Source: an uncultured Pleurocapsa sp. (GTDB taxonomy: Bacteria; Cyanobacteriota; Cyanobacteriia; Cyanobacteriales; Xenococcaceae). From it: a stretch of 41,368 nt of DNA. Below, in pieces: positions 6,873 through 40,093 of this stretch. The position numbers and the translations under genes are program-made. Positions within the stretch are counted from its first letter, which is position 1. The number at the start of each line of letters is the position of its first letter. The stretch spans positions 1 through 41,368 of the forward strand of contig CALLPS010000006.1 of NCBI GenBank assembly GCA_938015355.1, given 5' to 3'. The notes beneath the pieces are model-generated. The model was not told the origin of the DNA. It was given only the letters and a program-made list of their open reading frames with translations, and did no database searches.

Positions 6873-6907
6873 GGCTTACAGCTTATAGCTTATAGCTTAT
6901 AGCTTGT
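6873..6907. repeat. Heptanucleotide tandem array (AGCTTAT)n
   Basis: GGCTTAC-AGCTTAT-AGCTTAT-AGCTTAT-AGCTTGT, period 7. Confidence 0.8.
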
Positions 6908-11725: not shown

Positions 11726-12520
11726 TTAAAATGCTGACATGGGGTTGAGCCAAGTAATTAGTTCCCGTTGCAGATTTTGTAAATCGCGAGACATTCCTTG
11801 ATTAAACCATTGTCCAATCGCATCAATTGGCGTAAATAAATCCCCTGTTTGCCAGCGAATTTTTTGACTCAAAGGAGTTAAATGATTTCCTGTTAGAGTA
11901 CGGAGGGTTACCATTTGGGGAAACCGATGCTCCAAAACATCGTTTAAATTAACTGACTGATCTAAATTGTCTTGGTTAAATTTAAGTAACAAATTACGAC
12001 GCACATTATAATGCTCGACAATTAGCTGTTCTGTTTCTGTGGGAGAAGGGGCAAACTCTATATTTAGCATGGGAGTAGTATTAAACTGTTCCATAAAAGG
12101 AACTGCCCTACTTGCAGGATAATTGTTAAAAGAAATCAAAATATTACCTGCTCTTTCTACGTCATATAAACTGCCAATCAGCAAATGTAATTTACAGCCC
12201 ATACTGTGTCCCACACCATAGATTGGCACATAGCCTTGACTCAAATTGTTGCTTTTTTGTAATCTTTCAATCACGGTTTCTAGACGATTGAGAACTTCCC
12301 GAGCGATCGCAAAATGATCAAAAGTGTTAAGGAAAGGAGTAGCGATAATTCCGTATCCCTCCTGGCTAAGTTGTTCGAGGATAGTACGATAGGATATTTG
12401 AGGTGCCGTCGCCACAAACGCCCCTCCCAGAAAATGGATAATCCCCTTGACTTTTTGACGCGGAAGATAAACCCAGCTACCAGAGATTTCTTGCCATTCC
12501 ATATATCTAGTGTGTAACAT
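11726..12520 (-). CDS. DUF1350-family alpha/beta-hydrolase-like protein
   Basis: GIIHFLGGAFVATAPQISYRTILEQLSQEGYGIIATPF...YGVGHSMGCKLHLLI; cyanobacterial/plant DUF1350 pattern. Confidence 0.8.
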   Translation of the reverse strand: MLHTRYMEWQEISGSWVYLPRQKVKGIIHFLGGAFVATAPQISYRTILEQLSQEGYGIIATPFLNTFDHFAIAREVLNRLETVIERLQKSNNLSQGYVPIYGVGHSMGCKLHLLIGSLYDVERAGNILISFNNYPASRAVPFMEQFNTTPMLNIEFAPSPTETEQLIVEHYNVRRNLLLKFNQDNLDQSVNLNDVLEHRFPQMVTLRTLTGNHLTPLSQKIRWQTGDLFTPIDAIGQWFNQGMSRDLQNLQRELITWLNPMSAF

Positions 12521-12685
12521 CAGCGTCCAACGATCTAAAATTCCTAATATCAGAGAGAAACAATTTCCCCTTCCCCCTTTTACCTTACTTGATCCGTTCC
12601 TATGTCGGATTTTAGATCCGATGGTGCGGTGGGCTTAACCAGCCCTAATAGTTTAATTTATTTCTTAGGAGTAAATAATTAATAA

Positions 12686-13258: not shown

Positions 13259-13286
13259 AGCTTATAGCTTATAGCTTATAGCTAAG
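13259..13286. repeat. Heptanucleotide tandem array (AGCTTAT)3 plus partial copy
   Basis: AGCTTAT x3 then AGCTAAG, immediately downstream of the E2 gene. Confidence 0.75.
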
Positions 13287-32673: not shown

Positions 32674-33975
32674 ATGAATCTAACAGGTATCAAAGCTAAA
32701 ATTGACCAAATTACTAATAAATCTTTATTTAAAGACACTTTCTGGATGTTAATTGCCAGATTAATCAACATATTAGTTCAGGCAGCTTATTTTGTAATTT
32801 TAGCTCGTTCCTTAGGGGCAGGAAACTATGGCTCTTTTGTTGGTATTTCTGCCTTAGCTTCTTTGCTATTTCCTTTTGCTTCTCTGGGTAGTGATGATGT
32901 TTTGGTTAAGGAAGTATCTGTAAATCGAGCACTTTTTTCTAGTTACTGGGGTAATACCTTATTAATTCTACTGATTAATAGTATCGTGATCACTGGGTGC
33001 TTGTTGTTAGTCTCTGGATTTATTTTTCCTGATGAGCTGTCTCTATTAGCCATTGCATTTCTGTTGTTGGCAGATTTGTTGGGACTAGGATTACAAGAAG
33101 CTGCCAATAAAGCTTTAAGAGCAGTGGGGCTAGTACATAAGGCAGCTCAACTAGTCGTTTTCAATACTGTAGGGAAACTTTTAGCTGTGTTATGTTTAAT
33201 CAATTTCGTCCACAATCCTAGCATTGCCACTAATGTAGATATCGGCATCTGGTCTATATTCTATTTGATCAGTTCATTGTCAGTCAGTTTATTTGCCCTG
33301 GTGACTATTCATAAGATGGTGGGGAAACCAACATTAAAGTTCGACAGAATTAAGTCGGATATTGCTCAGGGAATCTATTTTTCTATTGGCATGTCAGCAA
33401 ATAATATTAATAATAATATTGACAAAACGATGTTGGTTAGCATGGCAAGTCTAGATGCCACGGGAATCTATGGTTCAGCATATCGCTTTATTAACATTGG
33501 CGATGTTCCGATGATAGCTTTATTTAATGCTAGCTATCCCCGATTTTTTCAAAAGGGTGCTCTCGGATGGGATAGCTGTCTCAATTTTGCTAAAAAGTTG
33601 TTACCGATGATTTTAGCCTATGGTATTTTGAGCTTTGCTGCCTTCCAAGTTTTTGCTCCTTTAATCCCCAAAATTCTTGGGGCAGAATACCAAAATGCTA
33701 TTTCTACTTTACGTTGGCTAGCTCCCTTGCCTTTGATTACTGCTTTACAGCTATTAATTTCTAATACCTTGACTGGTTTAGGGCATCAAAAGATTCGTAG
33801 CACGATTCAGATAGTAGCGGCAGTGATTAATGTAGCTTTAAATATCTGTTTAATCCCAATTTTCGGCTTATATGGCGCAATTTGGGCAACGTTAACTTCT
33901 GATAGCATTAGGGTAGCTTGTCTTGGGATAGCATTATTTTATTTATATCGACGCTCAAGATTATCATCTAATTAA
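32674..33975 (+). CDS. Oligosaccharide flippase (Wzx/PST-type polysaccharide exporter)
   Basis: Multi-TM protein, LARSLGAGNYGSFVGISALASLLFPFASLGSDDVLVKE; polysaccharide_synt fold pattern. Confidence 0.88.
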   Translation: MNLTGIKAKIDQITNKSLFKDTFWMLIARLINILVQAAYFVILARSLGAGNYGSFVGISALASLLFPFASLGSDDVLVKEVSVNRALFSSYWGNTLLILLINSIVITGCLLLVSGFIFPDELSLLAIAFLLLADLLGLGLQEAANKALRAVGLVHKAAQLVVFNTVGKLLAVLCLINFVHNPSIATNVDIGIWSIFYLISSLSVSLFALVTIHKMVGKPTLKFDRIKSDIAQGIYFSIGMSANNINNNIDKTMLVSMASLDATGIYGSAYRFINIGDVPMIALFNASYPRFFQKGALGWDSCLNFAKKLLPMILAYGILSFAAFQVFAPLIPKILGAEYQNAISTLRWLAPLPLITALQLLISNTLTGLGHQKIRSTIQIVAAVINVALNICLIPIFGLYGAIWATLTSDSIRVACLGIALFYLYRRSRLSSN

Positions 33976-34004
33976 GGTTGTTTATTGTTTGTCGATCTGT
34001 TTTA

Positions 34005-34039
34005 AGCTTTTAGCTTTTAGCTTTTAGCTTTTAGCTAAG
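34005..34039. repeat. Heptanucleotide tandem array (AGCTTTT)4 plus partial AGCTAAG
   Basis: Four perfect copies, period 7, then AGCTAAG. Confidence 0.8.
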
Positions 34040-34095: not shown

Positions 34096-34231
34096 TAAGT
34101 AACTGATGTTACGCACTCATGATTTATTAAAATCTGAAATCTGAAATCTGAAATCTGAAATCTGAAATCTGAAATCTGAAATCTGAAATCTGAAATCTGA
34201 AATCCAATAATTGCGTAACATCAGTAAGTAA
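34096..34231. mobile_element. MITE-like element: 13 bp TIRs and 7 bp TSD surrounding a heptamer array
   Basis: TAAGTAA (34096-34102) / CTGATGTTACGCA (34103-34115) ... TGCGTAACATCAG (34212-34224) / TAAGTAA (34225-34231). Internal (AAATCTG)10.7 at 34130-34204. No ORF inside. Confidence 0.7.
34130..34204. repeat. Heptanucleotide tandem array (AAATCTG) about 10.7 copies
   Basis: Uninterrupted perfect period-7 repeat over 75 bp. Confidence 0.95.
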
Positions 34232-34238
34232 TTTAGAA

Positions 34239-35078
34239 TTGGGCTTAAAATTGGGCAAACTTTATTTAGTGGGAACTCCCATTGGCAATTTAGAGGATAT
34301 TACCTTAAGAGCTATTCGCATTCTTAAAGAAGTCGATCTCATTGCCGCAGAAGATACTCGTCGCACGGGTAAACTACTACAGCATTTACAAATTAAGACC
34401 CCTCAAATCAGCTATCACGAACATAATCAAGAGTATCGTACTAATGAACTAATAACTAGATTATGCCAAGGAATAGAAATTGCCCTGGTAACAGATGCGG
34501 GGATGCCCAGTATTTCCGATCCTGGGCTACAGGTAGTTCAAGCAGCGATCGCTCATCAGATCCCTGTCATTCCGATCCCTGGGGGGACAGCGGTAATCAG
34601 TGCCTTAGCGGCATCAGGAATGTCTACGGACAGGTTTATCTTTGAAGGTTTTTTGCCCGCCAAAGAGAGCGATCGCCAAGAAAGATTGGAGTTGTTACGC
34701 AGCGAAACTAAAACAGTGGTTTTATACGAAGCCCCCCACCGCATTCTGAGAACTTTAAAGGATTTGGCTACAGTAGTCGGTATGGAGAGGGAGATTGTCT
34801 TAGCCAGAGAATTAACTAAGGTACACGAAGAATTTTGGCGCGGACATATGGGAGAAGCGATCGCTATGTATACTAATGAGCGTCAACCAAAGGGAGAATA
34901 CACTGTAGTCTTGCAAGGTGCAGTGGAAACTAGCTTAATTACTGACAAAACCGAGTTAAAACGGGAATTACAGCAGCTCTTAAATCAAGGAATAACGCGA
35001 TCGCAAGCCAGTCGTCAGTTGGCAAAATTAACGAATCTATCTCGGAGAGAAATTTATCAATTGGATTTAGACAATTGA
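34239..35078 (+). CDS. rsmI: 16S rRNA (cytidine(1402)-2'-O)-methyltransferase
   Basis: LGKLYLVGTPIGNLEDITLRAIRILKEVDLIAAEDTRRTGKLL, ALVTDAGMPSISDPG. True start may be TTG at 34251 (MGKLYLVGTPIGN) rather than 34239. Confidence 0.95.
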   Translation: MGLKLGKLYLVGTPIGNLEDITLRAIRILKEVDLIAAEDTRRTGKLLQHLQIKTPQISYHEHNQEYRTNELITRLCQGIEIALVTDAGMPSISDPGLQVVQAAIAHQIPVIPIPGGTAVISALAASGMSTDRFIFEGFLPAKESDRQERLELLRSETKTVVLYEAPHRILRTLKDLATVVGMEREIVLARELTKVHEEFWRGHMGEAIAMYTNERQPKGEYTVVLQGAVETSLITDKTELKRELQQLLNQGITRSQASRQLAKLTNLSRREIYQLDLDN

Positions 35079-40048: not shown

Positions 40049-40093
40049 CAGTTAGCAGTTAGCAGTTAGCAGTTAGCAGTTAGCAGTTAGCAG
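40049..40093. repeat. Heptanucleotide tandem array (CAGTTAG)6 plus partial copy
   Basis: Six perfect copies of CAGTTAG plus CAG in the murC-murB intergenic gap. Confidence 0.9.

Follow-up and report, generated by a model that had tools for sequence, protein, structure and literature searches.

A 122-bp inverted-repeat element with IS701-type ends and a heptamer array upstream of an rsmI-like gene in Pleurocapsa

The window analysed here is a stretch of 41,368 nucleotides from the draft genome of an uncultured Pleurocapsa sp., and the feature of concern lies between two of its + strand genes. The upstream gene (32674-33975) encodes a multi-pass membrane protein which, judged by eye, resembles a polysaccharide flippase, a function that is putative. 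Orthologs of the downstream gene (34239-35078) occur in 11 further genomes of the genus; from homology across the genus and a product named by eye, the gene is likely rsmI, for a 16S rRNA 2'-O-methyltransferase. In the 5' region of this rsmI-like gene is a 122-bp element (34103-34224) whose interior is largely a tandem heptamer repeat.

The anatomy of the element can be read directly. Its 13-bp inverted ends are perfect: the left terminal inverted repeat (TIR), CTGATGTTACGCA (34103-34115, + strand), matches exactly the ends of a 1,095-bp insertion sequence (IS) considered below and precedes CTC, which likewise adjoins one end of that IS, and the right TIR, TGCGTAACATCAG (34212-34224, - strand, located also by the genome TIR search), is complementary to it at 13/13 positions, with 96 bp between the two. 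From left to right that interior consists of a unique segment, CTCATGATTTATTA (34116-34129), common to a truncated second copy on contig C67, the array (AAATCTG)10.7 (34130-34204, + strand), for which Tandem Repeats Finder gives a 100% match, and a second unique segment, CAATAAT (34205-34211). The whole is bracketed by a 7-bp target site duplication (TSD), TAAGTAA, at 34096-34102 and 34225-34231; no strand is assigned to the duplication or to the unique segments. Rfam gave no match within the window, and the list of open reading frames has none of 60 aa or more over the element. The original prediction, made from the letters of the sequence, had the coordinates, lengths and heptamer copy number all correct, and its claim that the element is non-coding agrees with that list.

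Relatives have the site without the element. When the flanks in the window were joined with one TAAGTAA a continuous alignment to several relatives was obtained, while the unjoined window aligned in two pieces where flank homology persists. In the alignment of the orthologous sites, six species (L206, L207, L211, L213, L215 and L210) lack the 122-bp element and have TAAGTAA just once, and in a seventh (L212) the site is similarly empty, with TAAATAA. None of the empty orthologous sites has a heptamer array. Given these empty single-target sites in relatives, the element inserted in the lineage of the window.

Nor is this insertion a solitary one. With up to one mismatch permitted, the end sequence has 51 matches in the own 4.0-Mb draft genome (81% complete) and 0 for a reversed-pattern control, so the ends are not due to chance. 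Exact TIR matches are present in 10/13 genomes of the genus (control 0) and the end in the form CTGAYGTTACGCA in 21/27 genomes of the family, matches to named records placing the relatives in Pleurocapsa, Waterburya, Hyella and other Xenococcaceae. The genus and family genomes of this cyanobacterial family yielded 53 elements that have both ends. Exact TSDs, all of 7 or 8 bp, flank 31/53 of them, and with both orientations counted the 7-bp consensus is TTANTAA; an exact TSD is absent in 22/53, a few of which may be mispaired. The 122-bp element has the attributes of a MITE: TIRs, a TSD, a short size without a transposase gene, occurrence of its kind at multiple unrelated sites and ends shared with a parent. 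That it is one had been proposed from its perfect TIRs and TSD, and the proposal is upheld by the further copies and the empty sites. There are dozens of TIR matches where the prediction could have been faced with no other copy of the pair in the genome, and instead of relatives with the same inverted repeats and no insertion polymorphism, the suggested search for a lone TAAGTAA upstream of the rsmI-like gene succeeded in at least six species.

Ends of this kind are also found elsewhere. In the window itself a solo end, CTGATGTTACACA, is on the minus strand at 12511-12523 with no partner end within ~1.5 kb. The pair CTGAYGTTACGCA...TGCGTAACRTCAG is present at MITE spacing in many phyla (L217-L296), often with 7-8 bp TSDs and without arrays, the hosts including Methylobacter, Hymenobacter, Psychromonas, Crenothrix, Thiomargarita and Latescibacterota. 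Among the other-phyla elements with the same ends that were listed, 0/80 have an array, a count that covers elements of 93-123 bp only (interior 67-97 bp).

The transposase family, left unnamed in the original prediction, is IS701, as is evident from a parent in relatives: a 1,095-bp IS with identical 13-bp ends, 7-bp TSDs and a 362-aa transposase. The 362-aa protein scores 338.8 bits against NF049921 (IS701 family; cutoff 250), and also matches PF13546 and PF01609. In genome G020 there are 14 TIR pairs with a span of 1,079-1,095 bp, the full copies having TSDs of 7 bp (TTACTAA and TGATTAA among them), and one 1,079-bp copy being frame-broken. Genome G017 has an intact copy, G010 a stop-broken one and G003 many partial matches, many of them ending at contig ends. 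The 1,095-bp IS is economical (L104-L107, L109): the start ATG is inside one end and the stop inside the other, so that the open reading frame fills the element. Searches of the own genome (draft 81% complete) found no parent transposase, and genome G006, with many MITE ends, gave no transposase match. Insertion sequences of the IS701 family duplicate 4 bp of target, whereas the duplications here are 7-8 bp in the MITEs and 7 bp in the full IS copies read. Two other candidates for the parent were discarded. At G001:C36 TIRs are 1,293 bp apart with a dehydrogenase-like open reading frame and no transposase between them, the left TIR being part of a MITE-like element 149 bp long and the right TIR a separate match. 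An IS701-like open reading frame on contig C325 of the own genome scores 54.9 bits, below the cutoff, and has no matching ends nearby.

The array is not confined to a single member of the family. At least three exact heptamers are present in 13/53 elements, with seven distinct motifs; among the own-genome elements sampled, 10/13 have a heptamer array (one, L042, may be mispaired). Shuffled interiors yielded 0/2650 and equal-length random windows of G006 118/40000 (0.3%), an enrichment in elements of ~80-fold, though with the random windows mostly coding, the excess relative to intergenic DNA is smaller. The same test at other periods gave 0/53 at 4-6 or 9-12 and four elements at period 8. As with the cyanobacterial heptamer repeats known as STRRs, the unit is of 7 nt, there are three or more head-to-tail copies and the arrays are dispersed. 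Six own-genome copies of a CCCCAGT subfamily have near-identical flanks and either 3 or 5 exact units in a pure run. The AAATCTG form of the CTGATGTTACGCA MITE is represented by one complete copy and, on contig C67, one rearranged half copy, in which the shared left end is followed by an AAATCTG array inverted relative to that end, which suggests rearrangement at the array. For the AAATCTG array, then, spread by the 122-bp MITE would follow by analogy with its sister subfamilies.

A second mobile family, unrelated to the CTGATGTTACGCA family, provides a further instance of array carriage. Seven own-genome elements (L002, L004, L006, L007, L011, L012 and L015, on contigs C190, C371, C269, C38, C396, C217 and C180) have the ends TACTAAATCC/GGATTTAGTA and, in 7/7, identical 39-bp left and 69-bp right flanks, between which arrays of the AAATCTG/AAGTCTG type comprise 6, 9, 10, 14, 14, 23 and 37 units. 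In this family transposition copies the array, whose length changes afterwards. The element is absent from 26/26 relatives searched, and at L023 a CTGATGTTACGCA element harbours one of the TACTAAATCC type. Flanks read by eye show 3-bp TNA duplications (tca, tga, tta, taa); since this family carries heptamers and yet makes 3-bp duplications, the idea that the 7-nt unit and the 7-bp TSD are connected was dismissed.

How representative element-borne arrays are was gauged in a sample from G006 and G000, not picked by element content and with the window included. Of 50 heptamer arrays, 8 are bracketed by inverted repeats of 11 bp or longer, versus 2.3% in cross-paired flanks, so the arrays borne by elements are a genuine excess but a minority; ~84% of those sampled are outside recognisable elements, and the notion of MITEs as the seat of most heptamer arrays is unsupported. 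Arrays of at least three copies number 28 in 1.08 Mb of G006. The window has four others, TTTTAGC (34001-34036), CAGTTAG (40049-40093), GCTTATA (6874-6905) and AGCTTAT (13259-13283), and around none of them were inverted repeats of at least 9 bp found. Three G006 loci (L116 ~8939, L119 ~18906 and L145 ~7142, the last with shorter matching ends) have differing heptamer arrays between TATAGTCATTC/GAATGACTATA-like ends and are possibly a third element family. Arrays also adjoin TAGACCTCTTGCA/TGCAAGAGGTCTA-like ends at L144 ~2523, where both ends are present, and at L132 ~19679 and the start of L013/L014, where there is one end or a variant.

The reading that we consider very probable is that the 122-bp element is a non-autonomous MITE with the ends of the 1,095-bp IS701-family IS, the heptamer array being passive cargo. 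Acting in trans, the transposase of that IS would cleave at the CTGATGTTACGCA ends, and insertion into TTANTAA-like targets would generate the 7-8 bp duplication, the element having arrived upstream of the rsmI-like gene after the species split from its relatives. The array would be copied passively whenever the element moves, and at each new site could lengthen or shorten by replication slippage or array recombination. The insertion, its TSD, the family, the matching parent IS and the array-bearing copies that differ in unit number between identical or near-identical flanks are all directly shown; we infer mobilisation in trans, slippage as the length-changing process and the way in which an array first entered the element. 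On the simplest reading heptamer arrays arise in the host genome, are tolerated in MITE interiors and are then copied by transposition. Since most arrays are outside elements and the elements listed from other phyla have none, the element appears to be a passive carrier rather than the origin. The original proposal that such an element could spread heptamer arrays is thus supported, multicopy subfamilies having near-identical flanks and varying unit number, with the qualifications that carriage looks passive and that most heptamer arrays are outside recognisable elements.

Other views of the locus merit consideration. Being directly upstream of a gene, and with TIRs that would form a 13-bp terminal RNA stem (z -4.85), the 122 bp might be thought a static cis element, a hairpin terminator or 5' regulatory structure around a slippage-prone repeat, that was never mobile. 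To this we give virtually no credence: it is refuted by the orthologous sites that lack the whole 122 bp and have one target copy, dozens of unrelated sites have the same ends and TSDs that differ, a scan found no terminator-like site and promoter-like matches are at chance level. It is very hard to believe that the array was there first, and either gained inverted ends or received a MITE insertion, since there is no AAATCTG array outside the TIRs at the site, the TSDs enclose the whole element and the empty sites have no heptamers; this is despite arrays being common in these genomes (the 28 in G006) and (TTTTAGC)5 being 60 bp upstream of the element.

A subtler alternative has the array as a working part of the element, a spacer for transposase or host-factor binding or a recombination site, selected within MITEs. 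Its attraction is the ~80-fold enrichment (smaller over intergenic DNA, the random windows being mostly coding) and the presence of AAATCTG inside two unrelated families, those with CTGATGTTACGCA and TACTAAATCC ends, and beside the TGCAAGAGGTCTA end of a third. Seven widely differing motifs among the copies, the lack of an array in 40/53 of them and the 0/80 for the listed 93-123 bp elements of other phyla make it unlikely. The same distribution of AAATCTG invites a bolder reading, that several unrelated MITE families draw on and carry a common pool of heptamer arrays, which would pass between families, probably via recombination between arrays, be spread as the elements transpose and come to differ in length. 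We offer this tentatively and with more doubt than conviction; were it true, many of the heptamer repeats across the genome would be accounted for by carriage in MITEs whose ends later decayed.

Cyanobacteria have for decades been known to contain heptamer repeats. These include the STRRs of Calothrix and GGGGA(C/T)T of Nostoc (PMC4692102), as well as TAACTGA repeats (PMC4679880), and the arrays described here are like them in being 7-nt, head-to-tail, intergenic, dispersed and variable in copy number, the CCCCAGT array being of the Nostoc GGGGACT type. A link to mobile elements was reported to be generally absent for the heptamers of Nostoc and Xanthomonas (PMC4692102) and no transfer mechanism was evident for the TAACTGA repeats (PMC4679880), whereas here a fraction of the arrays is inside mobile elements, a concrete route for their spread through these genomes.

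As to the vehicle, among its closest kin are insertion sequences of the IS701 family (NF049921), to which the transposase of the parent IS belongs; the 122-bp element has 13-bp ends identical to those of the parent and no transposase. MITEAba12, with ISAba12 (PMC6382973), and a 187-nt ISL3-type MITE of Microcystis (PMC11448079) are likewise short and non-coding with IS-shared ends, and have parent-length TSDs, many copies and insertion polymorphism. Those two have conserved interiors and are not known to contain a tandem array; the interiors here are variable, often with heptamer arrays, and the parent is of the IS701 family. A tandem array (minisatellite) inside a MITE with many intergenic copies is already known from BrickBuilt of Porphyromonas gingivalis (PMC4596501), to which (AAATCTG)10.7 within a MITE is an evident counterpart. 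The BrickBuilt unit is of 23 nt, while that here is of 7 nt and varies between copies and families, and so on a comparison by description the present element is not filed there; here a parent IS and empty sites have also been found. What is new is IS701-type MITEs with a changeable heptamer cargo, and with arrays in TSD-flanked elements and unit-number differences between identical flanks, the spread and turnover of such repeats become directly measurable.
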